This document shows, piece after piece, positions 10,118 to 56,900 of a stretch of 64,000 nt of DNA (positions are counted from its first letter, which is position 1; every line of letters starts with the position of its first letter). Position numbers and translations under genes: made by a program. The notes under the pieces are model-generated. The model made no database searches, was not told the DNA's origin, and saw only the letters and a list, made by a program, of their open reading frames with translations. The stretch is from Neoarius graeffei (lineage: Eukaryota; Chordata; Actinopteri; Siluriformes; Ariidae), in NCBI RefSeq assembly GCF_027579695.1, contig NC_083592.1, positions 34,292,714 through 34,356,713 of the forward strand. The letters are read 5' to 3'.

Positions 10118-10183
10118 TGTAGCCTTTATTATTATTATTATTATTATTAATAATAACAACAACAACTGCTTGCATTGTAAATA

Positions 10184-11816
10184 CAGTTGAGGTCAGAAGT
10201 TTTTATACTCTCATTATGGACTTGAATGTCATGGCGATATTGGACTTTCAAAGATTATTATTTTTTATTTTTCCCCCTCTGTGGCAGAATGATTGCACAA
10301 CAGACATCTTTACTAGAAAAAAAAATCATTTGCTGCACAAATTTATTTTAGGTTTTCCAAAATCCATACATCGACAAAAATTCACCTAAATGTCCCTTAG
10401 CAAGTTTTACCTTAACCAGATGCTTTTGGTAGCCAAAAGTTTCAGGCAGTTTCTGGTTGGACTGCTATTCTTGGCAGAATTCTATTAAGTTTCTTGGCAC
10501 AGACCCAGCGTCTAAGCAGTCTCTACATGTTTTCAATACGGTTGAGGTCAGGCCTTTTGGGAAGGTGATTCCAAAAGCTTAACATTATCCTGCTTCATCC
10601 ATTCCACAACCAGCTTTTGATGTGTGTTTGAGGTCCTTATCCTGTTGCAACACCCAGTTATGTCCAAGTTTCTGCTGTTGAAGAACTCTGAGGTATTCCT
10701 CCTTTTTCTTTATTCCATGTGCAATGCACCAGTTCCACTGGCAACAAAATGGGTCCAGAGCATGATGCTACCACCACCATGTGAAGCAGTTTGTACAGAG
10801 TTATTGGGGTTGAATGCTTCACTTGTAGTCATTCAAACATAACTCTGGTCATTGTGGTCAAACTTTCCTCCAGAAGGCTTTTTTTTTTTTTGTCCATATG
10901 GTCAGTTGCAAACTTTAGTCAAGCTTAAAGATGTCAATTTTGGAGCAGGGGATTATTTCTTTGATGGCAGCCCCTCAATCTATGGTGATGTAAAACTCCC
11001 TTGACTGTAGAAGGTATTCCAGAAGCTTCCAGTTCATGGCAGGCCTGTGCTTTGGTGGTTCCTGACCATCCAACCAATTTCCTCTCAGCAAAAAGTGACC
11101 GTTTGGGTCTTCTTACAGACATTGGCAAAGTGGCTACATCTCCCAATAAGTCTAATCTCATCTCATCATCTCTAGCCGCTTTATCCTGTTCTACAGGGTC
11201 GCAGGCAAGCTGGAGCCTATCCCAGCTGACTACGGGCGAAAGGCGGGGCACACCCTGGACAAGTCGCCAGGTCATCACAGGGCTGACACATAGACACAGA
11301 CAACCATTCACACTCCCATTCACACCTACGGTCAATTTAGAGTCACCAGTTAACCTAACCTGCATGTCTTTGGACTGTGGGGGGAAACCGGAGCACCCAG
11401 AGGAAACCCACGCGGACACGGGGAGAACATGCAAACTCCGCACAGAAAGGCCCTCGCCGGCCACGGGGCTCGAACCCGGACCTTCTTGCTGTGAGGCGAC
11501 AGCGCTAACCACTACACCACCGTGCCGCCCCCCAATAAGTCGTTCTTAATAATAAGTCGTTCGTAATTAATAATCTAATTGGGTGTATGTATATTTTTTT
11601 ATTCTGTAGGTATAATGTTGACCCTGTGTTGATTTTAGAAAACCCAAAATAAATTAAAACTTGTGCACCAAATTCTTTTTTTTTCTTTTCTGTTAAATAT
11701 GTTGTACAATCAATCTGCCACAGGAAAAAGAACAGATCAGAGAACTCACTGACATCCCAATACTGCCACGACATTCATGTTCATGATGAGCGCATGTAAA
11801 CTTCTGACCTCAGCTG
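10184..11816 (-). mobile_element. Degenerate Tc1-like transposon split by a SINE
   Basis: TIRs CAGTTGAGGTCAGAAGTTT and AACTTCTGACCTCAGCTG are flanked by TA on both sides. Between 10500 and 11150 the - strand carries a frame-broken Tc1 transposase. A SINE sits at 11152-11530. Confidence 0.8.
11152..11530 (-). mobile_element. tRNA-headed SINE with 10-bp target duplication
   Basis: CCCAATAAGT flanks it exactly at 11142-11151 and 11531-11540. It is a full-length copy inside the Tc1 element, so it is younger than that element. Confidence 0.92.
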
Positions 11817-12004
11817 TACATACTTGTATACATAGTACATTTGGATAGTCTACATGTTATGAATGAGGCTGAATTGATAATTGGGGGGGGGACACCCAGC
11901 GAGTGCTCTACTGACTGAAGCTGAAAGCATTGGCACAGCACATCCAAATATCATTCATGCTCTAATAAAATAAATCCTTTTTCTACTTTTAAGCAACCGC
12001 AGCC

Positions 12005-12121
12005 ATGTACCACAACAGCTCCCAGAAGAAATATTGGACTTTCAATAAAGAGGCCAACTTGGAAAATTTAAGACTTGAGGCGAATCAGAAGTTTCGTGCA
12101 AAAGCCCGAAGTCTCCGAAAG
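12005..12121 (+). CDS. ccnh: ccnh coding exon 1 (residues 1-39)
   Basis: Encodes [19 protein letters not shown] and on to SLRK, the N-terminal helix region that contacts CDK7. It ends at a GTAAGA donor in phase 0. The ATG sits 11 bases after a CTACTTTTAAG acceptor-like site, so this exon probably continues from a separate non-coding exon. Confidence 0.95.
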
Positions 12122-18100: not shown

Positions 18101-21100
18101 TTAGAGTCACCAGTTAACCTAACCCGCATGTCTTTGGACTGTGGGGGAAACCGGAGCACCCGGAGGAAACCCACGCGGACACGGGGAGAACATGCAAACT
18201 CCGTACAGAAAGGCCCTCGCCGGCCACGGGGCTCGAACCCGGACCTTCTTGCTGTGAGGCGACAGCGCTAACCACTACACCACCGTGCCGCCCATTGCAG
18301 GACAAATGTTTTGTGAGGAAAATATTTTTGTTAGATAATAAGCCATTTCTTTAATTGCTTTGAAAAGGTAATCATTTTGCGTTTTATTTTATACAGTCCT
18401 GGGTAAAGGGTGCCAGTAATTCTGGAGTTGACTGTCGTTTGTATTGTCAAAGCAGCAGACATTCGAATTGGTTTCTTGCCATTTCTTCAAAAAGTTTTGA
18501 TGCTTGCATTGTTTGTTTTATTCCAAACTGTGGTTTATCGTTTAAAACTTGTGGATTTTTCAGTCCCTCTGCTTGTCTTCACCAGGTTGACGTGTGTGTA
18601 CCTGTCCTGTAAGGTGGATGAGTTTAATGTTTCCAGCACTCAGTTTGTGGGAAATCTTCAGGAAAATCCAGCAGCTCAGGAGAAAGCTCTGGAGCAGATC
18701 CTGGAGTACGAGCTGCTCCTCATTCAGCAGCTCAACTTCCACCTGGTGATACACAACCCGTATCGGCCACTCGAAGGCTTTCTCATAGACCTGAAGGTAA
18801 TATACTGTACGTTCGAATAGCACCGTCCTGTCACCAATAAAAATAACGGACAGGACGATGTTTTGTGACGCACTCTGGACTATACTGTAGCATTTTAATC
18901 GTTTTCATACTCCCCCCTTGGTGACGTATACTATATGGCCAAAGGTTTGTCGACACCTGACCATCACACCCATGAATGCTTTTTGAACATACAATTCCAG
19001 ATGCAGTCCCTTTTCCCTGCTCTAATAATCTCAGCTCTTCCGGTAAAGCTTTCTGCTAGCTGTTGGAGCAGGGCTGTGGGGATTTGTGTTCATTCAGCCA
19101 CGAGAGCTTTACTGAGGTCAGGCACTGATATCAGGTGAGGAGGCCTGGCATGTAGTCACCATTTCAAATTAATCCCAAAGGTGGTCAGTGGGGTTGAGGT
19201 CGGGGCTCTGTGCAGGACACTATAGTTCTTCGTTCTTCCTTTCCAACTTTGGCAAACCATGTCTACACAGAGCTCGCTTTGTGCACAAAGGCAGTGTCAT
19301 ACTGGAACACGTTTGGGCGCTCTAATTCCACCGAAGGGAAATTCTAATGCTATAGTGTCCACAAACTTTTGGCCATATAGTGTAGTTAACATACCGTAAT
19401 CCAACAGCAGATGGTGTTATGGCAACAAAAGATTAACTTGAGGAATCAGGAATGTAATATTTATTTTGGATAGCTGGTGCAAAGTTTTAGGACAGTTCTA
19501 GAAAAAGTGTCTGCTTGGAGCCCTGGTAATAGTTACCATGACCCTGAAGTAAGGTTGGACATCATGGCACAGAGACTCGGATTGTTGGCGCGCCCGCGTC
19601 TAAGATGCACTATTTCGAATAATGAACGCATTGTCGAGAGGGGCAGGGGCCAATATGGACGCGAGTATTTTATACCCTATTTGGAACGTTTCGTGGCGTA
19701 TTACTAGACTTCATGGTCTCAATATTGAAACTCTTGCACAAATATGCAACTTCCAACATAATTATGTGGATATTCAACAGATTTCAGCATCGGATGAATT
19801 TGTTTTGACCGCCGCCATATTGAATATACGTCGGCCCTGTTTGTAGCGTCCCAAGCGAGTAAAACCTGATTCAAGTCTTTCGCTAGGTGGCGTCTTACGG
19901 TCTATGTATGAATATTCGAAAGAGACAAGAAAACATGGATAAGAAAAAAAAAAAAAAGAAAAAATACATCCATTTTGTTATTCTTTGGCAGAAAGAGTAC
20001 ATTCACCTGGAAAAACTGATACCCAAGGTAATTAGTCATACTAGATTTACAACTACAACAGCAACCATGGCGGCACGGTGGTGTAGTGGTTAGCGCTGTC
20101 GCCTCACAGCAAGAAGGTCCTGGGTTCGAGCCCCGTGGCCGGCGAGGGCCTTTCTGTGTGGAGTTTGCATGTTCTCCCCGTGTCCGCGTGGGTTTCCTCC
20201 GGGTGCTCCGGTTTCCCCCACAGTCCAAAGACATGCAGGTTAGGTTAACTGGTGACTCTAAATTGACCGTAGGTGTGAATGTGAGTGTGAATGGTTGTCT
20301 GTATCTATGTGTCAGCCCTGTGATGACCTGGCGACTTGTCCAGGGTGTACCCCGCCTTTCGCCCGTAGTCAGCTGGGATAGGCTCCAGCTTGCCTGCGAC
20401 CCTGTAGAACAGGATAAAGCGGCTACAGATAATGAGATGAGATGAGAACAGCAACCACTACTACTATAGACCTATACCAAACTGAAAACAAGTTAATAAA
20501 ATTAATGAAATTAGAAGTAGAGATGATTAGAGACTAGCAGAATTAGACCGTCACAGCATGCAAAAAACAAACCCATTCTTGTGCTATAATTTACAAGGAG
20601 GAGATAATATAGATGTGATGTATAGTGGCCTGTGGTTGAATTCCAAAATATTGCCACTGATTAAACAATATCTCAATATATTTGGTTGAAACATTGATTT
20701 TTGTCATCTACATTGCTTCATATGGCTTCTAATACCAAAAAAAAAAAACCCCAGAATTGAGAAGAAAAAAAAAACAGCCCCTGGGCTGCCCAGCTGTTCA
20801 TTGGGCTCGCTTCGCTCACTAAGTTCACTTCAACTGAAGGATAATCACTGGGCCCCCCATTGTAGAAATGGGCCCGTTTTTTCCCCGGAGGGGCCCTATG
20901 GGCCCCTTGACCTGCAAAACAATCTCACTACGTTCACACTGCAAGGCTTAATGCTCAATTCCGATTTTTTTGTGAGGTCGTTCACATTAACAAATATATG
21001 CGACTTGTATGTGATCCTCAGTATGAATGAAAAGCGACCTAAAAGTGTTCCGCATGCGCATTGCAGGATACGACGACGTCACACGCAGTGAGCATGGCCA

Positions 21101-24100
21101 GTGTTTACGGAAGTTAACCTAAAGTTACCTGTGTATGACAGTAGCCAGCATGGAGTACCTGGCGATGATGCAGTTGTTGTTGCGACGGAGCCAGAACATG
21201 CACAATAGCCTGATGTTAAGGAGGAGGTTGAGAAGGAAGAGGGCAAGGGTTTTGGCTCAGGCGTTCTGCGGGGTAGTGACTGCAACCTCCGTTCAAAGGA
21301 ACATCAAAGCCATGTTGTTGTAACTTTTTTTGAGAGACCCGCCGCCTACTTCAGCGCAGAATAGTGACGTTTGTGGCTTGTTGATGACGTGTAAGTCGGA
21401 TGAATGCGACCTGGCGGTTCAGACTGAAGTCGCATATGAAAAGATCGGATAGGAATCGGAATCAGGACCACATATCCAAACGGCCTGGGTCGGATTTGAA
21501 AAAAATCGGATCTGTGTCGTTCATATTGTCAATAAAAGATCGGATACAGGTCACATATGGGCGAAAAAATCGGATTTGAGGTCATTTCAGCCTGCAGTGT
21601 GGACGTAGTGTCTGAGTCTCTGATGGCAGTATAATAATTTCACAAGATGCATTTTAGACTTTTTTTTTTTTTTTAGATGACCCTCCATTATTACAAGTAC
21701 CTTTTTTTTTTTTTTCCTTGTTAAATTTATAAAGTATTATAAACGTAGAAGTATTTTTGCTCTTACACTGTTAGCAAACAATTACTGTGATGCCCATCAT
21801 GGATTGTGAAAATGCCTTCCCCGCCCCCCCAGACAAGGTATCCGCTGTTGGAGAATCCAGAGATGTTGAGAAAAAGCGCAGACGACTTCCTGAACAGAGC
21901 AGCAATGACAGACGCAGGTCTTTTGTTCTCTCCGTCCCAGATCGCCCTCACCGCCGTCCTCAACAGTGCAGCACGAGCAGGTCTCAACATAGAAACGTAA
22001 GTTCTAACAAACGCATGCTGATGGGCTGTACAGTCACGCTGAATTTTTTTTTTTTTGTCCTTGTATTTTAAAGTATGTAACAAAATGGCGAGCCTGAGGT
22101 ATGTGCTGATAATCTGTGATGTCAGGAAAAAAAAAAAACACTTGGAGGGAAGCGGTTACAAGAAAATAATCAATGACTGGGTAGTGTGAATGACTTTATA
22201 TCCTGAAGTTTATTATGTTCTTGTAGTAGCATGTCCTGAAGTGTTTTATTCCTTTAACACACAGCAATTTCTTTTTTTTTTTTAAATAAATACCCCTGTG
22301 CCAGGGGTCTACTGGCTTACCTCTGTTCATATCTCATCATCTGTAGCCGCTTTATCCTGTTCTACAGGGTCGCAGGCAAGCTGGAGCCTATCCCAGCTGA
22401 CTACGGGCGAAAGGCGGGGTACACCCTGGACAAGTCGCCAGGTCATCACAGGGCTGACACATAGACACAGACAACCATTCACACTCACATTCACACCTAC
22501 GGTCAATTTAGAGTCACCAGTTAACCTAACCTGCATGTCTTTGGACTGTGGGGGAAACCGGAGCACCCAGAGGAAACCCACGGCGAGAACATGCAAACTC
22601 TGCACAGAAAGGCCCTCGCCGGCCACGGGGCTCGAACCCGGACCTTCTTGCTGTGAGGCGACAGCGCTAATAAATCGGGGTTTTTTTTAAATGATTTTGT
22701 ATTTTTAATGTTATTACAACCTCAGTATTATGTTAAAGTTTCAAACAGAAAATGTTGGTTTTCATGCTACCAATTGTTTGGTAAAGATTATTTTTAATAA
22801 AATAATCACAGTGGATTTATTGCATTTTGGAACCAAGCTCTTCTCTTTATTCATGGATGGGTACAATTCTTGCTGTGGCTCAAGCGTGAAAAAAAAAAGT
22901 TCCTCTTATCATTTGCTTCATACTAGCCGTAATCCGTCGTCCCCTCACCAGCCTCTCTTTTTTTTTTTTTTTTAATCATGTTGCTGAGAAGCTGCAAAAA
23001 ACCTCTATCCTGAAAACCTTCCAGCAGGCTTTCGTCTAAACGGGGGAACAGGGGCGCTGTGCCCTCTTACTCTCGGCGTGCGCCCCCTTACCGACTCCGT
23101 GAAAACATCCCAGCAACACCACTTGACAATGTGTCTGATCATCAAATACGTTATAATTGCTCCAAAAATATTCCAATCATAGTAGATACACCGCCAGACG
23201 GCGCCAAAACAATCCGAATTGGCGGTTTCCAGACTGAGGCGCCATGTTGTTTAGTTGTCGCGGCTGCTCTCGCGAGATTTGACATGGGTTACATACAAGG
23301 TCAGCTGACTTGTAGAGCGAGACTGAATGGCCTTTCACCCACCGGTGCGGGAGTTTTTGATAGTAGTAGTTCGCGAGTTGTTTTTGTTGACACTTGGGCA
23401 TTTAAAGATGTCATCCTGCGGCACGAAGCAGAAGAAAGCCAAAGACTGTCCGGGGCAGAAGATGATTACTTCTTTCTTTTTCAATGTTGACAATTTGTTA
23501 CAATTTCCCTCTCAGATAGCCTCAGAATGTCCCATTGGAGCATTTTTCAAAGGCTTTGCACGGCGGGGGGGACAACGGGCACCATCTCCTCGCCATGGTG
23601 AGCGCCCTCATACTAAATGTTTCTAGGAAAAAAAAACCTGCTTCCAGTAATCAGAAAACTTAGCATTACTTCTAACTGTTGCAAAGCGCCAACACTGGAG
23701 ACTCCTTCCAAACATGCTAAATGAACAAAACCACACGCACCTTATGACAGGTATACACTGATTTTTGGGTTGTCCTAGATGAAAGATGACTAACGTCAAA
23801 GAAACGTGGTGATGTATATCTTTGGTTATGGCTCCAAACCGGTGGTCCTACCTGACACGGCGCAAGAGGTTCAAAGACGGCCGTTGTCACCGTCTTGCAC
23901 CCAAAGATAGCCTGGGACAAAATTCTGGCAGTGTCAGAAATTTAGGATGACCATCTCGCACTGAGACTGCTGCTACAACCTACGTCTACTAACCAACCAA
24001 TAGGAACGCAGCATGAAAGGATCAACGCGACACTGGTGCCAAACCCAGAATCTTGTTCTGCTTCATTGTTCACCACCATAGCGGTGCAGATGGAGGACGC

Positions 24101-27100
24101 ATGCTGATATCTTATTCTTGTATCCTACGATTGAGTAGGTGTCATCGTCGGACAATCGACCTACGTCAAACCTGATGTCGTACCCAAGTTTATTAGATCC
24201 ATGTCACATAGTGTGACTTACACTAAACTTAGTTTCTGAAATCTGTCTGTAGGCACCATTTTATATATAGAGTAACCATACCCACAATTAAACGTTTTTA
24301 AATCCATTTGAGAAGCATGTTCTACACAAGTCCCAAAGTTTACTATTACCATAGAAACAACACATTAGAATGAGCACATTACTATAAACTGGTGATTTTT
24401 CCTTACAGCTCGAGCTGCTGTCAAAGCTGCTGTTATAGAAAACTAAACACCACCTAATCAGTCAGAATAAAGTATCCAACAGCACTGTGGTAGATATGAT
24501 GTGACTGCACTGTTATACATAATATTTTATACATATCTGTGCTCTCCATAATTATTGGCACCTCTTGTAAAGGCTAATAAAGTGTTAAGAGAAAAATCCA
24601 CCTTCTGGTGCAATGGCTTCATCGTGCATGGAGAGAAATCCAATTGAAAAATGTATTCAAAGAAAAGCAAATCCCTGCGGAAATAATTATTTTCAACAAA
24701 AACACGTGCTACGATTGATGGCACCCCTGGAAATGGTGAACTATACAACCTGTCTGATCCGTCCTGGTGCCCTACGTCTGATCACGTCGCTCCTGTAGAG
24801 GCTGGCCCCCATGGACAGTTGAAAATCACACTTGGCTGGCTTTGGACTCTGTTTTTCTATGATGGCTGGCGACTGCAGGTGTCACGAACAGTTGATTACT
24901 TGAACAAAACAGACTTCATATGAAAACTATAACGAATTTCCAGGCTACACAGTTGTGCATTGACTATATAGGACACAGTTATGGAAGCGAGTTATCACCC
25001 AGATGAGGATGGGTGCCCTTTGAGTCTGGTTCCTCTCAAGGTTTCTTCATGTCGTCTGAGGGAGTTTTTCCGTGCCACCATCATCTCAGGCTTGCTCATC
25101 AGGGATTAAATTAGCTTGTTTAAAAGGCTTTAATTTTCTGTAAAGCTGCTCTGCAACAATGCCTGTTAAGAGCGCTCTGAGAGCACAATGGCCCCCGCTG
25201 GTAAAATGTGACTGAACTGAATGAAATTGCAATCTGCGTATTACTGACATGGAACAAAGAATCCTGTCAAGCTGGGTGAAATTCGTCCAAAAATTGTGGA
25301 GTTGATTTCAGAAGAACGTACACCCTCATGAAATTGTCAAAGTACAAGTTATTTAATCAAGGGTCAAAACGCTGGTAAAATTTTCACAAACTAAATTAAA
25401 TCGCAATATGCGTATTACCGTCATATAACAAGGCCTTTTGCACCAAGCTTCGAGAAATTCGTCCAAAAATTGAGAGGAGTTGATGTCAGAAGGCAAGCAC
25501 ACCTTCATGAAATTGTCAAAGTACAAGGTTGTTAATTATGGAATCAATTTTGTGCCAAAATGTTCATACAATACTTTTGAAACATCAAACAAAAACGACA
25601 AATCAAAATACAAAAAGTCAATTTTTTTAGACTGGCAAACAAATTATTCGTGTAATCGTGCAAAATATCAGTCTATTACTCTTCAGAAACCTTTTATTTT
25701 TGTTCCGCGTCTTTCTCAGTTTTGTTTGACAATTTATTTTGGTTGCGATTCCAGCTCTCGTTTGCGCTCCCTGACTTTTTGCTTGCAGTTTTGGTACAAA
25801 CTTCACGTGTGGGCGGGCTGTCCAGGAATGCATTCCCATTGGCTAACTTGTGTTTGACTGACAGCTACGCTCAGCCATTCCCTACTCGGATTCTGGTGGA
25901 CTGTTTGAGTGACCGATCCATTGACAGTAAACAAGGATCGAGTGGACTTCAGTGGCGACTATGATATTGAATTTACACTTTGTTGAATTAATTCAATATC
26001 ATAGTCGCCACTGAAGTCCACTCGATCCTTGTTTACCGTCAATGGATCGGTCACTCGTCAAACAGTCCGCCAGAATCCGAGTAGGAAATGGCTGAGCGTA
26101 GCTGTCAGTCAAAGGGAATGCGTTCCTGGACAGCCCACCCACATGTGAAGTTTGTGCCAAAACTGCAAGCAAAAAGTCAGGGAGCGCAAACGAGAAAGCT
26201 GGAATCGCAACCAAAATAAATTACGTCAGACAAAACTGAGAAAGACGCGGAACAAAAATAAAAGGTTTCTGAAGAGTAATAGACTGATATTTTGCACAAT
26301 TACACGAATAATTTGTTTGCCAGTCTAAAAAAATTTTCCTTTTTTTGTATTTTGATTTGTCGTTTTTGTTTGATATTTCAAAAGTATTGTATGAACATTT
26401 TGGCACAAAATTGATTCCATAGTTAATCAAGGACTGTAACTCTGGTAAAATGCAACCGACTTGAACAAAATAATGCGCATACTACCAACATAATGCCTTT
26501 TGCCAAGTTTTGTGAAATTCCTCCAAAAATTGAGAGTTGATTTAAGAAGGTGAACACCCTTCCCAGGACAGGCAGAAATCGCCACGACATAATCCCCCTT
26601 CGGGCCTTTCGGTCAGCAGGGGATAATAAACTGACTTAACTTGTAACTAAAGAAGAAGCCGCCTTTATTTGTCACATGCACACTTCAAGCACAGTGAAAT
26701 TCATCCTCTGCATTTAACCCATCTGAAGCAGTGAACACACACACACACACACACCAGAGCGCCCGGGGAGCAGTCAGGGATAGGTACCTTGCTCAAGGGC
26801 ACCTCAGCCCAAGGCCGCCCCACGTTAATCTAACTGCATGTCTTTGGACTGTGGGGGAAACCGGAGCACCCGGAGAGAACATGCAAACTCCACACAGAAA
26901 GGCCCTCGCCGGCCACTGGGTTCAAACCCGGAACCTTCTTGCAGTGAAGCGACCATGCTAACCACGTTAGCGGTAAGAATGGACATTCTCCATATGTCCC
27001 AATGAGAACAGTTAAAGGTAAATCTTGTTTATTTTAAACCTGTACTGTATTTTGCATATACCATAAGTTTCTACATTTTTAAAATCGATTAACATTCAGC

Positions 27101-39900: not shown

Positions 39901-42900
39901 AATTTAAATCAGATCAGCACAAAACCTTCGAGTATTATTCTGCTTACGGAGGCAAGATCTCAGCAGCCATGAAGATCTTCTCAACCAGCTCAGAGAGGAT
40001 GAAGAGCAGGTTGTTCAGGTTCAGATTTACATCCTCGTTCTTCTCCAGTTTAGATGGGTTCAGCTTTACAGCAGAAAGCAGGAAACGGTCAAAACAGGGG
40101 TAGCATTCTGACAAACTAGTGGATCAATAGATCTATTTAGTGACTACAGATCTACAAAAAAAAAAAAAGTAGGTCACGCATATTCATCACAAGGGATGTC
40201 AAATTGCATTAAGGGGGGGGGGGGGGGGGGGGGAGAGAGGAAAAAAAAGGACCAATAAAATCACATTAATTTTTAATTACTGAAATAACGTGGTGTTGAA
40301 ATGTTTGTACGCACTGCCACTGTGTGTTAATTTGAAGCAAAGAGAATCATAATTGTAAAATATTGGCTCATCATTTATTAACGTCCCTTTTTATTAATGC
40401 CCTTTCTAAACGTGCAGTAAGACTGAATGAGAACCCACTTCCTTTTCACTTAATACACTCACTACAGAAGATATAATGGCATTCGAAAGAGACAAATAGT
40501 AAACTATATCGCCAAAAGCACCCCAAATCAACTACAACAATAACTCAAGAGCAGGGTGTCAACTATTGACATGTACTTGCATACACCTTTTAGTACACAT
40601 TATTCATGCAATGTATAAAAAATTATACAATTTAAAAATTGATGCATAACAAGATCAGCTGTGAGCTACTGCTCACTTATGTTTCCCCCGCTCTCGCTTA
40701 GGCCATCCTTAAAAAAAAAAAAAATCCGTTTCCTGTCCACCGGGTGAGCAAAAAAAAAAAATTCAGTCAGGAGGGAGGGATTTTTTTTTTTATGGATGGA
40801 TAAGAAATCGCAATGCTGTGTTTGCTTTTTCTTTCAGTACTTTATTATTACAAAAGCAGACACATTTAATAAAATGACAGTTTAAATCAACTGAAACTTG
40901 TACAAAAACTAAGTTAGCATTTTAAATGCTGACTGCAACATTTGCAAAACTTTTACAAAGGTACTTAAAATGTCCGACACACGGGCTTTTTGTAGTTCTA
41001 AATCGAGCGTTAGGCCTAGTTCGGATGAAATTACACTATTAAAATGATCACTGAATGATTTGTTTTTCTGAATCTTTACTATTTTGTTGTTCGCTAGAAT
41101 ACCATTTTGCGATTTCACACTTAAGCAAATGTTTGAAAACTCCGGATCTCCTTCCTTCATGGTGGCTGCCATTTTTTTGTGCCGCACGGCGCATGCGCAG
41201 AGCTGATTCAGTTCAGAGTGCGCGCGCACTCGGCGGAGGCAGTAGTGTGTCGGAGGGAACAGAAGCAGAGATAACGCTTATTTTGTCTCCGGTAAACCAG
41301 TCTTCTCTCGTTCAATTACGTGCTGGCATCAAAAGACACCGTTGGTTGTAAATGAACCCAAACTGAGTGGTTGGAGTGTATTTTCATACACAAATGGAGA
41401 AATGTTCGCTGAGTGTTTAATTGTGTAGCCCCACTGCAGACCGTTGTCGTTGTTAATTCATAGCATGCTCAGCTGCGTGAATGTGTCCTGCACCGAGAAT
41501 AAGAGATTTACAAGCCAGGAACACCTCATGATGCAATACGCAAGAAAAGAAAGAAGATTTACTGCCATTTTACTTTGTATTTGAGTAAAGTGAATAAATA
41601 AATGGTCTGTGGAAAATGCATTTAATCCTGGGAACTGCGTGCACAGGAGTTTATTTTGTGTTTACTCCCCCCGGCTACTTATTTGTCATGGCTGGCTAGT
41701 ATGAGCCTTAGTGGAAAGCCCTGGGAATGCATAAATGTCAAGTTCGATTTTAGATTTACGAACCTGAAAAAAAAATGTCGAAAAACCGGCGTAAAAAAAA
41801 AAAATTTTCAACCGCACAAACGGCACTCACCCGGCTGGTGGACCGGAAACAGAACATTTTTTTAATAATGGCCTTATAGCAGAATGCAAGCAATAGGACA
41901 CTTATTATGAAAGCTGACTTCAACAAATAATTAACCCTGAAACAAGTAAAGAGCAGTGTTCGCCCCAGGGATTTCAAATAGCATCCTGCTAAACTGTCAT
42001 TTAGCTTCTTGAAATAGCATCAAAATTCACCATGTGTTTCATAAATACATTCAGTCAGTCGATGTGCGACAGACCTGAAAATGGTATACGTGGTACAGAA
42101 CCCCAAGCTGAAGCTTGCTACCGAATATCAAGCAGTTGTGATTTGTAGTTGCTGAGAAAAATGTTACGAAAATTTTGTAAATCCACGCTATACGTTTCGT
42201 AAATACATTCAGTCGGTAAACAGGAAGTCGATGTGCGACAGACCTGAAAACGGTATACACGGTATAGAACCCCAAGCTGAAGTTCGGTACCAAGTGGCTA
42301 TGATTTGTGGTTGCTGAGAAAAAGGGAGTTTCAGACGGACGGAAATACAGACGGACAAAGGTAAACCAGTATCCACCCCTGCTCCAAAGCGGGGGTATAA
42401 TTTAGTAAAAATAAAAATTAAAAATGAGGTGATTTTGACAGCCCTAATGGAAGTTATACCCACAGACTACAGCACCAGTCAAAAGTTTGTACACCTCTAC
42501 TTATTCATAGCTTGTTTTTTTTCTGTATTCTGACCATTTTCTACATTGTAGAACAATACTGAAGACATCAAAACTATGAAATAACACATAGAATTATCTG
42601 ATCAACAAAACAGTATGTTTAGATTCTTCAAAGTAACCACCGTTTACCTTGTTGACACTTTGCACACTATTGGCATTAGCTTAACCAGCCTCATGAGACA
42701 GTCACTTGGAACGCTTTTCAGTTAACAGGTGCCTCGTCAAAAGTTAATTAGTGCAATTTCTTGCCTTCTTAATGCGTCTGAGATCACAGTAAACAATAAA
42801 AACACAGTCAGTAGCCCTATTAGACAACTGTAGTAATCCATATTATGTCAAGAACCAACAGAATACAATTACTTAAAAGACATCAAGTGTCTTAATTTAT

Positions 42901-45900
42901 AAAAATAAAGAAAAACCACCGAATTAGAAGGTGTGTCCAAACTCTAGACTGGTACTGTACTTTCACAGTTGAAGTACGACTATCTACAGTGGCATGCAAA
43001 AGTTTGGGCACCCTTGCTGAAAATGTGTTACTATGAATAGTTAAGTGAGCACAGGGTTCTTGCAGGATTCAGTAAGTTAAATTTTAGACTTTTTTTTTTT
43101 TTTTAGACTTTAAGACCATTATGAAAAATTTTTTAGACCAACACAAAGCATTACAACCTGCCCTACCTTCGCCCTTCCCAAAAAAAGACAATCGAGTTCA
43201 ATTCTCAAAACAAAGTCATTTGTATTGGTAAACTGACTATCAGGGATACAAACTGATTGTGTGCTTATTTATGTCATATGGCAACATTAGTACATTATGT
43301 CACATAGCAACAAAAGTACAAGACAATAGAGTGATAAAGGGCATTTGTGCAGTAAATGCAGTCTGTAGGGGTTTGGTTTTTTCCCCTAACTGCAACAGAA
43401 CTCATTTAAACTTTTGGTTAGTGGTGTTCTGGTAATAAAACAGCGTTATTATATAATGCACTGTTGTCAGATGATGACTTTCTTGATTGCTCATGTGAAC
43501 CCCATGCTGCAAACCACAGCATCGCAGACCTCCACTGGCTGTAGCAACCATTTCAACCATATTAACAGTAAAAATGCATACACATCTTTTAAAACTAATA
43601 GTTAAAACATACGTAGTAGCCCCGTAGCACACTTGCTTCCAGTTAAACAGCAAACTCACGCAAGGCGGCAGCGATTTACCAATGAAATCAAGTCATACCT
43701 TGCGAGAGGTATACAAGGGAGACAGCAGGTTTTTAAGCAGTAGCGGAGCAAACAGGGGCCATTTGAGACAGAGGTGTAAAATCATTGCAAAATATGAATG
43801 CAAAATTAATAAATACTAAATAATAAAGCCAGGAAAGACACACCATTGGGGAGAGAATAATATATTTAAAAAAAAAAAAAAAGAGCACTGTTAGAAAGCT
43901 GAATACGCTGACTGGACTCATGCGCTCCATGTTGTCATGGTAACGTTGACGACATGTAATGTGCACGCTAAGATTGTCTACAGCAAGGGTGCCCAAATTC
44001 TTCTCTACAATGGGCCAAAAATTAATTCTGTGGGTGGGCCGCGGGCCAAAAAAAACGAACGTCCACGTTATGTTACCTTACATTTTATTGAAACGTGTCA
44101 TTTTTATATAGGCTAAGATCATTAAACTCAAATGTAAATGTTTAAAGCAATTAAACATATTTTGTATATTTATAGTAGGCCTACCTTTATTAATTTCAGA
44201 TGATGACAGAACATCCACATGGCTTATTTTAAGAGGTAGAAACATATTTGAAAGGAAAGCAACATTTCAGACTATATTACAAAAAGTGCTTTGGTAGCTT
44301 GAACAAGTTGAAAACAGTTGGATAAGGTCCAGGCAGGGCTTTGAACCGGTTCAAGGAACGAAAACGAAAACCGGGAACTTTTTCTATTTCACATGGAACA
44401 GAAACGAAACCAGAAACTTTATTATTTTTTATGTTCCGGAACAGAAACGCTTATTAAAAATAATGGTAACCGGTTAATACCGGTTTTTATTTCGTTCCTC
44501 AAAGTTTCTGTAGCCTACAAATAAGTCATTCTTCTCCTGCACAAGTTTCTATGACCCGCTGGGGTTCACTTCCTGTGTGAAGTTCACTGATTGAATGGAG
44601 AGAGCGGGAAGGTGGACTGCTATCATGTCTCCACGTGATAAAGTGAGTAAGTGCATTACTGAGTGTCTGAGCAAAGGAGAGCCTGAACGTTGCAACCTCC
44701 CTATTGGCTGTTTGTAAAAATGTATCAGTTGTTGCCCCTCCCACGGGAATCATCGCGGGCTCGAGAGACGAGACCTGACGAGTTAGTTCGTTGGTAGCAG
44801 AACAAAATGTCTGGACACAAATCGGGTTTTCAGAAAAGGAAAGAAAATAAACAGAGGGTCGAAAATACAAAAAAGGAGGCAGAAAATGCAAAATGAGTTT
44901 TAAGGTAGGACAAATGGTTAGTTTTTAAGGCAGCCCGCCGTGGCTGCAGGCTTTCAGTTGCGTCATTGAATGGTTACTTTTCTGAGGCAGCCCGCCGTGG
45001 CTGCCTGCAGGCTTATTTATTATAGCCCATTTCGTTAAAATAGTTGATATAAAATGTTTATAGTTATGTGATGGTTGTCCTGATTTAGACTGCTTTTTTT
45101 TTTTTTTGGGGGGGGGGGGGGGGGGTTTGCGCGATGTTGCACCCGGGTCCAGATTAGGGCAGAACCGGCCCTGGCTACATTTCAGGTGTAGTTTGTTTTA
45201 TGTATGTATGTACTTGCATAGATGTGTACTTGGTCTTCCAATATGGCGCCTAACAAAATCTCGCGGCGCGGTGACGTCATGCGGTAGCCCTCTATAGGGC
45301 CTGACTAGCCTTTGGTAACACACTAAACGAATTATCTTTCATTTTTGGCACTTTTTCTGTTTGTGTAGATGGGAAGACATACTGAGAATCCAAATCGCCA
45401 ACATTTGAAATAATAATTGTTTTGAATTATTTCTTGTCTTATTTAATGAAGGTTGTAATAGAATTAGCCTACATTTGGCTTAAGCTGGATGAGACAGAGA
45501 CATAATTTTATAGCCATTTGTTAAACAGCTGACAGGGAACGTAATTAACCGTTCCGGGAACGAAATTTTTTTGTTCTAACCGGTTCGGGAACATCTATTT
45601 AATGGTGGAACCCAAAACCGGAAACGTTAAAATTCCGTTTCTGTTCGGAACGAACCAATAGGAAAAAAATTCTGGTTCAAAGCCCTGGGTCCAGGACAAC
45701 CAAATATACAATTCTATTTAAAAATTAACTAAAATGTGAATTGAGCAATAACACATGCCCTTGTAACACTGTGCCTTTTAAGCCATATGAAACCAGATAG
45801 AATTTACTTTAGACGGAATGTGAAATTAGATTGAGTATTAGGTATGGAATTGGACAATGTGAACTGAGCAATATAGAACACAACACAACATTTCCCTCGT

Positions 45901-48900
45901 GTTGTACCTGAAAGTGTCTCAAGGCCAGCCAGCTCCTGTGTCACTTCAAAATCCTCACCGACTCCGCGCAAAAATGCCATCAATTGTGCATAGTCGCATA
46001 TGTCGGTGCTCTCATCGCAAGCAATAGAAAAGGCCGTAAATCTGGATGCTTTACCAACGATTTGTTCTCCGAGATCCTCAGCCATGTCCTCGATGCGGCA
46101 GGTAACTGTGTTCCATGATAAACTAATTTGCGAAAAGGCCCGTGTCTGGCTCGGGGACACAGTCTCTGCAGCCACAGTCAGGCAACTTTTAACAAACTCT
46201 CCACATGACAAAGATCTCCCAGATTTCACTATCATTGCGCTGATCTTATAGCTGGCCTGAGTTGCATTTTCTTGAGCAGATGACGGCTGCAGTAATGTGC
46301 GTTGTTGGGCACTGAGCCTGGCTAACAGTTCACTAGCCTTCTGCTTTCTTATTTCACCACTGTATTTCGCAAACTGAGGTAAATGTTTTGTTTCATAATG
46401 TCTACGGATGTTGTATTCTTTCAAAACTGCCACTCTCTGTCTACAGACAAGGCACACTGCCGAGGAATCGATTTCCGTGAAAAAAAATAATCTTGCCAAC
46501 TATTTTTGAATTTTCTTTTATCCGTGTGCCACTGCCTAACACAGCGCTCCATCGTAACCTCTGCTCCTCGCTTGTGTCATGAGCCTGCTGACAGGCAGAA
46601 GAGCCAGCAACTCAACAGCGCCCCCCTTGTCCCCCCTTATAAAACTGTGGTCAGAAAGTGAACTGCAGGCAACTCTTCCGAGCCGCTGGGACAGAAATTC
46701 CCAGCGGCTGGCACAGACCTGGCACTGACGGGCGGGCACAGATGGGAAAAATGAGGCGGGCCAAAAAAAACGGAACATGGGCCAAACTTGGCCCGTGGGC
46801 CCCAAATTGGGCACCCTTGGTCTACAGTGTGAAAGCTCTCCGCGCTAATGTGAGCGGCTATTTAACCAACCGTTCCAGCCCAACACAGCTCCTTTTAGCG
46901 GTAGTGTGCTTCAGCCTATTGCTCGCAGAACACTCATTTTTCATACTTACGGAGGTGCTTGAAAGTTTGTGAACCCTTTAGAATTTTCTATATTTCTGCA
47001 TGAATATGACCTAAAACATCAGATTTTCACACAAGTCCTAAAAGTAGATAAAGAGAACCCAGTTAAACAAATGAGACACAAATATTATACTTGGTCATTT
47101 ATTTATTGAGGAAAATGATCCAGTATTACATATCTGTGAGTGGCAAAAGTACGTGAACCTCTTTACTCACTATTATTCGACGTGCTATCCACACTCTTCA
47201 TCGCACTGCCAACACAACCGCTAACCTTCTCTGACTGCCACAGACTGCATAAACTCGGCGGGAACTTAGAAGGTAGAATTACGGTAAGCGTAGTGGACAA
47301 ACCGGACCGTTGCATACTTGCCGCGATCACCGGTGATTGAAGTTTTTTAGCAGGCAGACAACAACGCAACCGGCACATTTTTTATTAATGTTTTGCAGGC
47401 ACTTCTAGGAACGGATTGAGCGGATGTAAGAATTTTAGACTTGGATAAATAAAATTTTAGACCTGGGATGAAAGTGTTTTTAGACATTTTAAGGCCTAAA
47501 ATTTAACTTTCTGAATTTTAGACTTTTTTTTTTAAGACTTTTTTAGACCCCACGGGAACCCTGTGAGCAGAAGATGAACTGATCACCAAAAGGCATAAAG
47601 GTAAAGACCACATTTCTTTTCAGCGTTTTCTGCAAGATTTGTGTATTATTTTTGTTTTATACAATTGGAGAGTGAAAAAAGAAAAGGAACACCATGCGAA
47701 AGTTTGGGCACCCCAATACATTTGAGTTCTCAGGTAACTTTTACCAAGGTTCCAGACCTTAATTAGCTTATTGAGCTGTTGCTTGTTCAAATTCTTCGTT
47801 AGGAAAGGTCAGATGATGCAGATTTCAAAGCTGGATAAATTCTCTGACTCCTCAAACTTGTCCCTAAAATCAACAGGCATGGGCTCCTCTAAGCAACTCC
47901 CTCACATTCTGAATAATGAAATAATTGATGCTCACAAAGCAGGAGAAGGCTACAAGAACATAGCAAAGTGTTTTCAGGTAGCTGTTTCCTCAGATTGTAA
48001 TGTTATTAGAAATGGCAGTTAACAGAAACAGTGGAGATCAAGGTGAGGCCTGGAAGATGAAGAAAACTTTCTGAAAGAACTGCTCGTTGGATTGCTAGAA
48101 AGGTAAATAAAAACCCCTGTCTGACTGCAAAAGACCTTCAGAAAGATTTAGCAGACCCTGGAGTGGTGGTGCACTGTTCTACTATGCAGCGACACCTGAA
48201 CAAATATGACCTTCATGGGAGAGTCATCAGAAGAAAACCGTTCCTGCATCCTAGCCACAAAATTCAGTGTCTGAAGTTTGCAAATGAACATCTAAATAAG
48301 CCTGATGCATTTTGGAAACAAGTCCTGTGGACTGATGAAATCAAAATAGAACTTTTTGGCCACAATGTGCAAAGGTATGTTTGGAGAAAAAATGGTGCCA
48401 AATTCCAGGAAAAGAACACCTCTCCAACTCTGACGCATGGGTGTGGATCGATCATGCTTTGGGGTTGTGTTGCAGCCAGTGGCACAGGGCACATTTCATT
48501 GGTCGAGGGAAGCATGGATTCGAATAAATACCAGCAAACTCTGGAAACAAACATCACACCATCTGTAAAAAAGTTGAAGTTAAAAAGAGGATGGGTCCTA
48601 TAATAAGACGATGATCCAAAACACACCTCAAAATCTACAATGGAATACCTCAAGAGGCCCAAGCTGAAGGTTTTGCCCGGGCCCTCACAGTCCCCTGACC
48701 TAAACATCATTGCAAATCTGTGGATAGATCTCAGAAGAGCAGTGCATGCAAGACAGCCCAAGAAACTTGTCGAACTGGAAGCCTTTTGCAAGGACGAATG
48801 TGTGAAAATCCCCCAGGTAAGAACTGAAAGATTATTAGCTGGCTACAAAAAGTGTTTACAAGCTGTGATACTTGCCAAAGGGGGTGGTACTAAGTACTAG

Positions 48901-51900
48901 CCACGCAGGGTGCCCAAACTTTTGCTTCGGGCCCTTTTCCTTTTTTGTCATTTTGAAAATGCAAAAGATGAAAATAAAAAATAGTTTTTGCTTAAAATAT
49001 AAAGGGAACGAGTCATTAACTTTATGCCTTTTGGAGATCATTTCATCTTCAACTTGCTTAACTGTTCACAGTAACAGCAATTTTGACCAGGGGTGCCCAA
49101 ACTTTTGCATACCACCGTACATCAGAAACAAAACACAAAAACACGTAACAGACCTCGCAGGACTGCTTGCTCTCCATAATCTTCAGAATGGTGTCTTTGA
49201 GGGCATGATGGACAAAGGGCGTGGCTGTAGCCTTCATGTACTGCTCCATCAGTGTGCTGGCCAGCGTGGTGGCACGGAACAGAGTGGTGGCTTCATCTGG
49301 CGAAAATTACAACATACTTATAACATTCAACAGTCTGACTCCATTTGTTACATATGCTGACTTGTAATGCTGTTTGCTTAAAAAGGTACAACTGTTAATG
49401 GAGGAGTTTTGCATATATAGTACAGAAAAGGATCAGAAAACTTTACCTTCCATATTAATCTCTCGGTCATTTAAAGTCCTGAGTAGTGGAGCCTCGGCTT
49501 TCTCGTGCCTGAAGATCTTGAGCAGGATGCTGGCCAGTAGAGTGCGGTCCTGCCCACACACATGAGCCAGCGCATAGATCACGTGGAAATCTCTTTGCAG
49601 AATCACCTGAGTACCAAAGGGTGGTCAAGTGAAAACCACAATAAAGAACGAGACTGCAAACAAAAATATGTCAGCAGCATGCAAACCTGAAGCATATTGT
49701 GCATAAATCAGTGCCATGTAATTTCATATATAAAAACAAGTTCTTTAAAAGTGCTCGTCTTACAAAAACGACATCATAAAATCCTGGGTTTTCTGTGCGT
49801 GGTATGATCAAATAGGTTGTAAAGTTCACCGAGAAATAAAAAATTGGTTTGAAAAAGAAAAATTTACGCCTGAATTCTGTTCCAAAATCATTAAAAGCTT
49901 GTCTGCCATTCGATCGGAGCAATTTATTGGTCAGCGGTGCTGCGTGTGTGACATCATGTGCGCCACTGCCTTCTTTTGTAAAGCTCTCTACACAACTTTA
50001 TGACAACAAGGACAAAGAAGTGACTCAGAGTGAATAAGCATGTTTCGGTTTGTTTTTAGATCAGTAATTGTCTGTCGTCTATCTAAGTATTATATTTGGC
50101 CGCATAGAAAATACCTTAGAACGTTATTGATCCGACTAAGGACAACTAATAAATTCGAGCAAAAGGCTAAAAACACAAGCTTGACACTTCCTGTGCGGCG
50201 GTGAGCTCTTTGGGACGGCGCTTCTGACTTTTGTTTCCAGATCGTAGGAACTGCTCCATGTACCAAACATCACTCAAATCCTTCTATGTGAATTTACCTC
50301 ACAAATTTATATCTTTTTCAAAACGCACGGAGCAGATACCAAACCGCCCTGATGGCTTGAAGTTACCGCTTTTTGTCTGTACAAATCGAACCCATTCAGT
50401 CTGTACTGGCCCTTTTCCACTACCCTTTTTCAGCTCACTTCAGCCCAACACGGCTCGCGTTTCGACTACCTCAGAGCAGCACGACTCGGCTCGCTTCAGC
50501 CCTGCTCAGCCCCCAAAACTCGCACGGTTTTGGAGTGGGGCTAGGGGCGTGAGGAGACACTCCCCTGTGCACCGATTGGTGAGGAGGAGTGTCCTCACAC
50601 GCCCACACACGCTCCGCGAGCACGCTGGGATCTGTAAACACCGTAAACCCGGAAGAAGAAGAATTACGAATTACGAGAATTTCTGAAGCCTTACGCGCCT
50701 CGCCTCATCTATACGCTCTTGCCAGTATCTGTTGGCGTTGTCGGTGACAACAAGCCACAGCACCAAGACCAGCCACACTAACGACTCCATGTTTATTGTT
50801 TACTATCCGGGTCGTGAGACGACCGCTTAAAAGGTCACTGATGTCACTGTTTGCGCCGCCTAACGACATCACGTGATGTCCACCCACTTTCGCTAACTCC
50901 ACCCAATGTGTCCACCCACTTCCAGCCAGCACGGTTCAGCGCGGTTGTAGTCGAAATGCAACTCCAACAGCCCCGCTCAGCTCGACTCAGCCCAACTCAG
51001 CCGCGTTGGTAGTGGAAAAGCGGCATAAGTGTCCTGCCGACTTTGGGGTGTAATGGATCAAAATTCCACCTTTTTTAAAATAAAAATCAGTTACACTTGA
51101 ACAGCCTTGAACAAGACACCCCTTAGGAAGCATGCTTTGCTTTTAATTTACATAGACGAAGCCAGAAATGCCACAAACTTTCAAGCGTTCCACGCATGAC
51201 GTCACTTCCTTTGAATCAACAATAACTTAGCAGGAACGCATTCGTGTAATGGCGGACTCAAAGAGCCAAACTTTACCGGCTAAATAGAACATGTTCTCGG
51301 GCTCGTATTAAAATACAATTTTATAAGGTTTTATAAGGTATAATTTCCAGGGGTGATGCCATTTTCATAAGACTAGCACTTTAATACTCATGTTTGAGAT
51401 TCTTACATCTTTGAATTCATTATACTCTTCCTCTGGCATGATTTTCTCCATGGAATAGCGTGCTCGCACACGCAAGGAGCCTGGCTCAATTCCCTTCAGA
51501 GGCACATGAGAGCTCAACGGAAACCATTCGTCAATCATCTGTCCCCTCTGCAACCGGCTCAGAAGGCAGCGCATGAACACTGCACAGACGTGAACGTGCA
51601 CATTTAAAACATGGTGCTTTAAATAAAGTCCATTAAGTTCCATTCATGTGGACAGCAGAGGGTGCCACAGCACAAATAAACAAACATGGTCTTAAACCAA
51701 AGGCTACCATGTTGCTTTATACAGTAATCCAGGCAACTCAACTGTTTTTACAGAACGTGTGTAATTTGCATTAATTTTCTACCGAGTACAGAGTTTTTCT
51801 TTCAAAGTATACTTACAAATATCACTTTCTTTGCTCTTCTTAGTCTTGTTGCTTAAGCTGATTTCAAATCGGTTTATTTCACTGGATAAGTCACTGAAAG

Positions 51901-53691
51901 GAAGCGAAAAGGAATAACTTCTTCATGAATGCATCGTTCAGTCACCTATCAGTTAAGGCTGCAAGTAAAATATTTCACTATTATGTGCAATACACGCGTC
52001 TACTCACTCAAAGATGAACTCCTCGGTGAAGACCGGGTTCTGGCCATCTCTCGGGTGAGTCCTGGCTACATGCACGCTGTTCAAGTAGATGTTACAGTAT
52101 GGGTTTGTGAAATGTTTAATGGGAAGTTTGTGCGCCTCTTCAACATACAGCACTAAGCTGCTCACCTGAGATAGAAGGATGAAAATAAAATGTATTGATA
52201 CAAATTATATTGGTATAATTAGGCGACTCATTTTAGATTTTTCGGATCACGGATCCGCCGACGGCAGTTAAATACTACCGCTAGAAAAATAAAAAGTCTG
52301 TGCGTATTATTTTTATTTTAACCGCCGAAACGTACAAAAAGAAATGTAAAAAAAAAAAAGTCACATTTTTCTTGTAACAGCACTGTATCCCTGGTACTAG
52401 GTCAGATTTCTTTAAGTAAAAAGTATTAGAATTGCAAATACAAACGGCAATGCGTGTTGTATATATCTACTTCAGCCGAGTCCGAAAAAGAAACTATTTA
52501 CGACATTGAGTATTCACTTGAATGTTATGGTATTTATGACCGCTTTACGACAGTGTCAGGCCAAGTTTACATTAGACCGTATCGGTCTCGTTTTCTTCGC
52601 GGATGCACTGTCCGTTTACATTAAACCGCCTGGAAATGCCGGGAAACGGGAATCCGCCAGCGTCCACGTATTCAATCCAGATCGTGTCTGGTCCGGTGCT
52701 GTGTAAACATTGAGATACGCGGATACGCTGTGCTGAGCTCTAGCTGGCGTCGTCATTGGACAACGTCACTGTGACATCCACCTTCCTGATTCGCTGGCGT
52801 TGGTCATGTGACGCGACTGCTGAAAAACGGCGCGGACTTCCGCCTTGTATCACCTTTCATTAAAGAGTATAAAAGTATGAAAATACTGATGCAAATACTG
52901 CCCATTGTGTAGTTATGATTGTCTTTAGGCTTGCCATCCTTCCACTTGCAAGTAGTAAGTGATATGCGCTGGGATCACACACACAGCGGCTCAGTCCCGA
53001 ATCGTGGCTTGTGCACTTCACTCGCGCGCTGTGTGAGCTGCGCAGGGCCGGAGTGCGCACCCTCCAGAGGGCACTCGCTGTTCAGGGCGGAGTGATTTGG
53101 AGCGCAGGATGCCTGCGGAGCCGAGCGTATCCGTGTATTGGTGTTGCTGTGTGCACGCGAATGGTGTATTGGTGTTGCTGTGTGCACACTAATCGTTTTA
53201 AAAACGTTAATCTGATGATCCGCTGATACGGTCTAATGTAAACATGGGCTCAAACTCGTGCTGACCATGGCTGACGGCATGGATTCCGAGCTATCGCCTC
53301 AACTGTACGTAAGCATAAAGTGTGGTAAAGAAAAGTCTTTTCACTGTCTCACTAACCAAAACGTGGGCGATTTCGTCTCTCAAGCGTTGAAAGTAAACAA
53401 TGAAAAGATCAAAACGATCTTTGGTTCTCAGAAAGAAGGTGGTGATGTAACGAGCGTGATGCTGAATATGCCTGCAAGTATCTGACTGTGGAATTAGAAG
53501 AGGATGGTGCCGCAGAGAGTCCTATCAAATCAAGTAGCACGAACGCATCAGCCTTCAATGTGCTCATGAGAGCTCAACGGTCATATGACCACATACCTTC
53601 AGAGAAGTAAGTACTGGAATGCTAGTCCGTGTTATAAACTTATACACAAGAACACACACACACATACATATATATACACATACATACATTT

Positions 53692-53769
<78 letters not shown>

Positions 53770-53790
53770 TATATATACATACACACACAC

Positions 53791-53855
<65 letters not shown>

Positions 53856-53867
53856 TATATATATATA

Positions 53868-53919
<52 letters not shown>

Positions 53920-56900
53920 CACACACACACACATATACATATATATATATATATATATACATACACACACATATATGTATGTATGTGTGTATATATAAAG
54001 TGTGTCTCTTGAATTTAAATTTTATCATCTTAATCCAATGAAATTGTCATGCAAAAAAAAAAAAAAATTGGCCAAGGACACTTATTTTTATTTCGACCGA
54101 CATCAAAAACATGTTGAAAAAATCCGTGAACCTAAAGATAAAAAAATGGGTGGCCTTAGTGAGAAGTTCACATATATGAGGGCCATGACACAAACTAGCA
54201 CTAGTGCTATTTTGTGCAAAAAATATTGGTAGCAACAGCAAATATTGAACAAGAGTGCTCGGAGAGCACAATATCCCCTGCTGGCAACTATGTCTATGCT
54301 AGAAGTACTTAATACACCCCCATGAAATCGTCAAAGTACAAGTTTGGTAATCAAGCGCCATAACACTGGTGAAATGTGACTGAAAGTGCAATATGCGTAT
54401 TACCGACATAGAACAAAGAATCCTGTCAAGTTTCATTAAATTCCTCCAAAAATTCTGAGAGGAGTTGATTTCAGAAGGTGAGCACCCTTCCCGGGACCGA
54501 CATTGCCACGACATAATCCCCCTTCGTGTCTTTCGGCCAGCGGGGGATAAAAATTAAGATGCTTTATGCGCTGAAGTTTGTTGCTTCCTTGCTTTGTTAG
54601 CTATGGTTTCTCGTATAGCGCTTTTAACAACCGACATGGTCGCAAAGCAACTTTACAGAATTTGAATGACTTTAAACATGAGCTAATTTTATCCCTAATC
54701 TATCCCCAATGAGCAAGCCTGTGGCGACGGTGGCAAGGAAAAACTCCCTCAGACGACATATGAAGAGGAGCCAGACTCAAAAGGGAACCCATCCTCATTT
54801 GGGCAACAACAGACATCATGATTATAACATTAACAGTTTTAACGTTAAGTCAGTTTCGTTGATGTTATAAACTCTTCATTGATGGAAACTTGAGTGCAAA
54901 ACTGTTCATGACGACTGCAGTCCTAAAGTTAGCAAGTCAACTGTAGTCCTCAGCCATAAAAGCATTCTCGTCTCTTGTACGGATTAGCTAGGCTGCTGCT
55001 ATGGGGCCACCTGAGATGCAGATGGGGGTCGCAGGATAGTTTATGTACATAAACTTGTTTTTTGATATATTTAAAATGTCATATTATATTAGCCTTAAAT
55101 CAATTCGGAGCGCCTCTTATACCCATTTTACAACAGACTGCAACAAGCCACATCCAACATGCTTTCACCTTAATCAAAGTCGCCTCCTGCACTGGACACT
55201 GGTGGTGTGCAGAAGGAAATATAAATTAGCATATTTTGTATGAAATGTTTGTTGTTTCATCCTAATATTCATGCTATATTTTGCATCATTGTACGCTTGA
55301 AATCTAAAAAGCGCACAGGTGATATTTCTGACTGTAGCCTACTGCATCAATTTCATTTATACGTTATATTTAGGGGTGTTCACACGGCACATATTTGCAT
55401 CGATGCTGCACCGATGTATTTTGTTGCGATATATCTTACACCGGTGTAAATTTTGTGGAGCGTTCACACGTCACAAACCTGCTTACTGGAGAGAAGCGTG
55501 TTAGCACCGGTGCAGCAGCCCCACTTGCGTTCACACGGCAGTTTTTGCGACCGTGCTATACGATAGTAATAATGCGGAAATGAAATATGCGCATGCGTGA
55601 AAATGTACTTCCTTTTCCCGGTTGTCATGGCATCACCAAGCGCCGGGAAAACAACGTGGATGAAGACACCAGTGTTGCCAGATACCGCTGACGTTTTCCA
55701 GCCCAAAATATGTTCAAATCCACCAAAATGCACTTAAAACCGCCCAATCTGGCAACACTGGAAGACACAGTTCTGTTGTTGTTGATATTCGCCATTTTGG
55801 AAGCACAAAATATCAGGATGCAAATTATGCAATGCCCGTATGTAATCAACTCTCCTCACGCGTAGCGAGTCTACCCCTGTAGCGTTCAGACGTCCCATTT
55901 TATATCGGTGCTGCCCCGCAAACTAGCATTTACTCCGGAGTAAATTTCTTAAACCCCCTCCCGAGCAGGGTTAGATTTGCACCGGTTTAAGCAGCTTTCA
56001 GGGGCTACACCGGTATAACTTTGTACCGTGTGAACGCTCTACCGGGGCAGCCCCGGTGCTACACCGGAGTAAAAAAAAAGTTGTCGTATGAACACCCCTT
56101 TTGACAAAATGTTTATTCCATTTATGTTGACTTGTAACAGTCAAATATGAAACGTTACACACACATCTTTCTATGGCTCGGGCACTGATTTACAGTAACG
56201 CACTGAATTCTTAAAACAGTGGGGTTATAATTTCAAATACAACCCCGATTCCAAAAAAGTTGGGACAAAGTACAAATTGTAAATAAAAACGCGAATGCAA
56301 TAATTTACAAATCTCAAAAACTGATATTGTATTCACAATAGAACATAGACAACATATCAAATGTCAAAAGTGAGACATTTTGAAATTTCATGCCAAATAT
56401 TGGCTCATTTGAAATTTCATGACAGCAACACATCTCAAAAATGTTGGGACAGGGGCAATAAGAGGCTGGAAAAGTTAAAGGTACAAAAAAGGAACAGCTG
56501 GAGGACCAAATTGCAACTCATTAGGTCAATTGGCAATAGGTCATTAACATGACTGGGTATAAAAAGAGCATCTTGGAGTGGCAGCGGCTCTCAGAAGTAA
56601 AGATGGGAAGAGGATCACCAATCCCCCTAATTCTGCACCGACAAATAGTGGAGCAATATCAGAAAGGAGTTCGACAGTGTAAAATTGCAAAGAGTTTGAA
56701 CATATCATCTACAGTGCATAATATCATCAAAAGATTCAGAGAATCTGGAAGAATTTCTGTGCGTAAGGGTCAAGGCCAGAAAACCATACTGGGTGCCCGT
56801 GATCTTCGGGCCCTTAGACGGCACTGCATCACATACAGGCATGCTTCTGTATTGGAAATCACAAAATGGGCTCAGGAATATTTCCAGAGAACATTATCTG

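Follow-up and report, generated by a model that had tools for sequence, protein, structure and literature searches.

Within the 64,000-nt stretch of Neoarius graeffei contig NC_083592.1 analyzed here (positions 34,292,714 to 34,356,713 of the forward strand; hereafter the window), four decayed transposons lie one inside the other in an intron of rasa1. From the outside inwards these are a Tc1-type element (A), an element best labeled hAT6-like by its 6-bp target duplication (B), a non-autonomous hAT (C) and a hAT-type element (D). The nest is real, and serial cut-and-paste insertion is very probably its best explanation. In such a series, A would have entered a TA of the rasa1 intron, the 6-bp-duplicating, hAT-like B would then have landed 65 bp into the left terminal repeat of A, C would have inserted into B, being reduced to a non-autonomous copy before or afterwards, and the hAT-type D would have followed into C. 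The result is an ordinary accumulation of transposon debris, a type of structure that is already well known.

Using a GAP-domain stretch of RASA1 as tblastn query, we obtained matches at 49282-49118, the exon encoding the FRATTLA arginine finger, and at 40072-39947, the next exon. The intron between them has a GT donor and an AG acceptor on the minus strand. The open reading frame (ORF) over the arginine-finger exon matches the Pfam RasGAP family with an E-value of 1.7e-4, which is below the curated cut-off. A preliminary description of the window had placed four levels at 42987-49117 and let them fill most of a 9.1-kb intron next to this exon. Both statements hold: the coordinates are the first and last base of A between its TA pairs, and the nest occupies 67.4% of the 9,090 bp. 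The length of about 1.61 kb given there for A without its insert agrees with the 1,613 bp we obtained, and the exact duplications TGAGCA, GTCTACAG and GGTCCAGG are all present at the element ends (Table 1).

A starts with CAGTGGCATGCAAAAGTTTGGGCACCC at 42987, ends at 49117 and has TA on either side. Direct-repeat motifs occur in its terminal repeats at an outer and an inner position; on the left, the two copies are alike at 20 of 21 positions. As evidenced by the TA duplication, the HTH and DDE domains and the terminal inverted repeats of the rejoined element, A is a Tc1-like member of Tc1/mariner. Of its Pfam matches, HTH_Tnp_Tc3_2 (3.2e-18) is above the cut-off, while HTH_SB (2.3e-9, 37.3 of 43 bits) and DDE_3 (4.7e-6, 27 of 28.6 bits) each fall below theirs. 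The transposase, which is oriented antisense to rasa1, is broken, as its three pieces are spread over two frames with two adjacent stops.

The strongest evidence for the nesting comes from the continuity of A across B, whose insertion point lies inside the left terminal repeat of A. After excision of B together with one TGAGCA, the left repeat of A aligns with its right repeat with 161 of 211 aligned bases identical and no gap at the join. We scored 2,025 rejoinings (45 x 45) of A across B against the right repeat. The top eight, with scores of 150-149, represent one and the same sequence, that with B and one TGAGCA removed, and differ in the length of the tail kept; the next distinct junctions, shifted by between one and a few bases, reached 148 and 147. 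As controls, the left arm alone scored 80 and the right arm alone 73, and none of 2,000 random joins exceeded 98. The continuity of A across B is thus clear, while the exact junction base is favored narrowly. The preliminary description had asked that a rejoined Tc1 align continuously to a consensus; A passes this across B, with its own right terminal repeat in the place of the consensus. A resembles Tc1-like elements of the Sleeping Beauty type in its TA duplication, its Tc1-type domains and its long terminal repeats containing direct-repeat motifs; it differs from them in its broken transposase and in left and right repeats that are only this far alike.

This excision test is also what makes B a real level, since its ends and duplication alone are unconvincing. 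A scan of the window for 12-nt terminal repeats with up to 3 mismatches next to 6-bp duplications returned 27 pairs including B, whereas shuffled sequences gave 4.85 on average and no more than 10. Of the other 26 pairs, 20 fall at 7.9-26.9 kb, within what seems to be a single, unrelated repeat family with copies in inverted orientation. With 20-nt repeats the scan gave 25 pairs (shuffle mean 0.8), and B is not among the matches listed.

B terminates in CAGGG..CCCTG, ends of a type that we take to be hAT-like. Its flanks match exactly over 6 bp (7 counting the terminal G), and flanks of 8 bp differ. The preliminary description had typed A as Tc1-like and C as hAT, which stands, and B as hAT-like with TGAGCA flanks, where the duplication is 6 bp and not the 8 bp usual in hATs. 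Flanking duplications of hATs are described as normally 8 bp long (PMC3942097, PMC12730594), and families with 5- and 6-bp duplications are named hAT5 and hAT6 (PMC12730594). With its exact 6-bp duplication in place of the usual 8, B fits hAT6 better than a classical hAT and is a putative member of that group. We consider it unlikely, but deserving of attention, that B is no hAT at all and belongs to another superfamily with 6-bp duplications. The 8-bp habit of hATs speaks for this, as do the 6-bp duplications of IS3EU and GingerRoot (PMC10045372) and the two B ORFs sent to Pfam (43402-43692 and 47163-47381, both minus), in which no transposase was matched. On the other hand, complete IS3EU families end in TA..TA, which B does not, and with hAT6 a 6-bp group within the hATs has been described (PMC12730594). 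For GingerRoot, termini of TG..CA occur occasionally (PMC10045372).

For C and D the ends and duplications are beyond chance. We scanned the whole window for 20-nt terminal repeats with up to 6 mismatches, the first 5 positions exact, next to 8-bp duplications, and compared it with 20 Markov shuffles. Three pairs were found, two of which are C and D, whereas the shuffles averaged 0.05 and never exceeded 1. Both elements thus combine the 8-bp duplication with the short terminal repeats of hATs. The 231-amino-acid (aa) ORF of C, within 45804-46499 on the minus strand, matches Pfam zf-C2H2_12, the Spin-doc zinc finger, at 2.4e-9, above the cut-off; in three ORFs of the C region Pfam found no hAT core domain. 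The copy seems to be internally deleted, and its classification as a non-autonomous hAT draws on the ends and the duplication only. Of D, one ORF (44526-44924, minus) was sent to Pfam and gave no transposase, only two chance-level matches. Within D a short open frame at 44807-44896 runs for 29 residues to a stop; its residues look like the beginning of a hAT transposase of the zinc-finger MYM type. B and D appear to be relatives of hATs.

Table 1 Features of the nest and its surrounding intron, with positions in the window.
Feature	Position	Strand	Details
rasa1 intron, arginine-finger exon (FRATTLA) to next coding exon	40064..49153	-	9,090 bp
A, Tc1-type transposon	42987..49117	+	1,613 bp net; long terminal repeats; TA flanks 42985-42986 and 49118-49119
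Left TGAGCA, duplication of B	43046..43051	+	exact copy
B, DNA element	43052..47563	.	1,668 bp net of C; ends CAGGGTTC...GAACCCTG; hAT6-like by 6-bp duplication
Left GTCTACAG, 8-bp duplication of C	43976..43983	+	exact copy
C, hAT, non-autonomous	43984..46819	-	1,474 bp net; 13-bp perfect terminal repeat CAAGGGTGCCCAA; by ends and duplication
Left GGTCCAGG, 8-bp duplication of D	44326..44333	+	exact copy
D, hAT-type	44334..45687	.	1,354 bp; 14-bp perfect terminal repeat CAGGGCTTTGAACC; by ends and duplication
F, possible hAT-type end remnant (...CCGGCCCTG) inside D	45133..45173	.	start arbitrary
Right GGTCCAGG, 8-bp duplication of D	45688..45695	+	exact copy
Right GTCTACAG, 8-bp duplication of C	46820..46827	+	exact copy
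E, probable fragment (left end) of a second, different Tc1-type element, within B on the right-hand side of C	46950..47162	+	right limit by eye
Right TGAGCA, duplication of B	47564..47569	+	exact copy

The 231-aa frame of C is also the longest among 82 stop-to-stop ORFs of at least 40 aa over 42400-49200 and is shorter than what we take to be the size of a complete Tc1 or hAT transposase. As none of the levels yielded a complete transposase, the four elements are most likely inactive remnants within non-coding sequence of rasa1, and we assume the gene to be unaffected by the nest.

The insertion of each inner element postdates the host sequence that it interrupts, and to this extent the sequence does establish the order, as the preliminary description had proposed. 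This order holds for this locus only if each element inserted here. That each level is dated by its target duplication was too strong a statement, as duplications carry no clock. Its expectation that age falls inward is suggested by the extremes of the CpG observed/expected ratio, with A at the bottom (0.27) and D at the top (0.91), but not by B (0.71 without the insert E, 0.68 with it) and C (0.62), which are out of order. The window as a whole has 0.69 and the remainder of the intron 0.73. The low value of A may derive from the composition of its family, since E, also Tc1-type, is low as well (0.34). An age estimate from left versus right terminal repeats across the levels was dropped, as the two repeats of a family need not begin identical.

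Several points weigh against serial insertion in place. The CpG values of B and C do not follow the expected order. The 6-bp scans do not make B convincing by its ends and duplication. Junctions of A across B that are off by one base score only 2 points lower, and the rejoining check covers the outermost level, A across B. Apart from the own repeats of A, short poly-T or poly-G stretches and the end of C matching the end of A, blastn within the window revealed no further copies of the four elements.

Serial insertion has one rival that would leave exactly the same nest. A cut-and-paste host can jump carrying a passenger already inside it, so at least one inner element may have been within its host before the host came here, for example C carrying D into B, and the local order of insertion would then no longer be fixed. 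In transposition such elements take along whatever lies between their ends, and both ends are still present in A, B and C. Long, interrupted copies usually move less well, and the CpG ratio, lowest in A and highest in D, is weakly in favor of stacking in place; we regard an already loaded arrival as distinctly improbable. Even more so is a combination of the two alternatives, in which B belongs to a 6-bp, CAGGG-ended lineage to which no transposase has so far been assigned and part of the nest came in as loaded units, so that it would record the movement of composite cut-and-paste elements and not simple stacking; we give this very little credence. Repeats commonly cause misassembly, but three exact duplications at element ends and the continuity of A across 4.5 kb of foreign DNA would be unexpected from a misjoin, so that a chimaera of unlinked repeats can be practically dismissed. 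Under serial insertion, each element would have been inserted at this locus and in this order.

Most nested elements in mammals are retroelements, which stay at their site. Nested clusters are numerous in mammals, and by interruption analysis they have served to rank families by age (PMC2517846); as in those clusters, older elements are interrupted here by younger ones. Unlike them, all four elements look like cut-and-paste elements, which makes the order less secure than in mammalian nests: nesting of this kind fixes the local order only if transport of passengers is excluded. As nested transposons are well known, a single locus adds little. Its value is that of a clean worked example in which the second terminal repeat of the outer element serves as a built-in yardstick. 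Among the papers listed on such nests in teleosts, or on nested hAT and Tc1 elements in catfish introns, no title or abstract opening concerned this locus.

The label GTF2IRD2-like, which the preliminary description had given to C, may reflect an annotation habit, hAT elements of non-mammals having been misannotated as GTF2IRD2 (PMC10641963; the name hAT-6 is a family number in that source and does not refer to the 6-bp group). C carries a Spin-doc-type zinc finger, and the label may point to this group; of a transposase, C has only a part.

The ends of A and C were also found to resemble each other. They share the core TTTGGGCACCC(TTG) at 42987-43019 versus 43976-44002 and at 46807-46829 versus 49078-49100, with a local score of 30 compared with at most 24 in 2,000 letter shuffles. 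This is probably convergence, and it can confuse the annotation of nests.

The depth of four levels proposed in the preliminary description stands; their arrangement in a single line does not, because B probably holds a second insert, E (46950-47162), which turns the line into a small tree. E begins after a TA at 46948-46949 with CGGAGGTGCTTGAAAGTTTGTGAACC and is probably a left-end fragment of a Tc1-type element different from A. Its outer and inner direct repeats, a pair picked by eye, score 25, a value reached by 7 of 3,989 control 56-mers. The best reverse-complement match of E within B is not an end, so no right end of E was located there. If E is correct, B is host to two inserts, E and C side by side. 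A fifth level inside D was considered for the end remnant F and rejected: it has no left end, and the two candidate 8-bp duplications in D carry 2 mismatches each with no matching end after them.

Pattern searches for A were made in the collections viral_contigs and genome_contigs, which are microbial and viral, so that misses are uninformative on animals. The terminal motif of A had 0 matches in viral_contigs and a degenerate pattern spanning its empty site 0 in either collection; for a piece of its transposase, 4 pattern stretches appeared in viral_contigs, none of which was confirmed.

The window contains other repeats outside the nest. A separate short Tc1-type element lies at 42470-42957, about 25 bp upstream of A, with TA flanks and 39-nt terminal repeats that are 79% alike. 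Probably in a neighboring rasa1 intron, a stretch at about 50408-51024 starts with GGCCCTTTTCCACTACC, ends with GGTAGTGGAAAAGCGGC and has inverted ends; by eye it looks like another DNA element. CAGGGCCGG occurs at 53043, by eye within 52990-54600; no paired end was seen for it, and no search was run on this motif. Several copies of one repeat are found in both orientations at 7890-26910, in pairs with GTCGCCTCACAGCAAGAAGG and AACCACTACACCACCGTGCC; this repeat dominates the 6-bp scan and is frequent in the TA scan. Finally, 885 bp at 25537-26421 have ends alike at 20 of 20 positions and inner arms that match in register, and apparently form a long palindrome.

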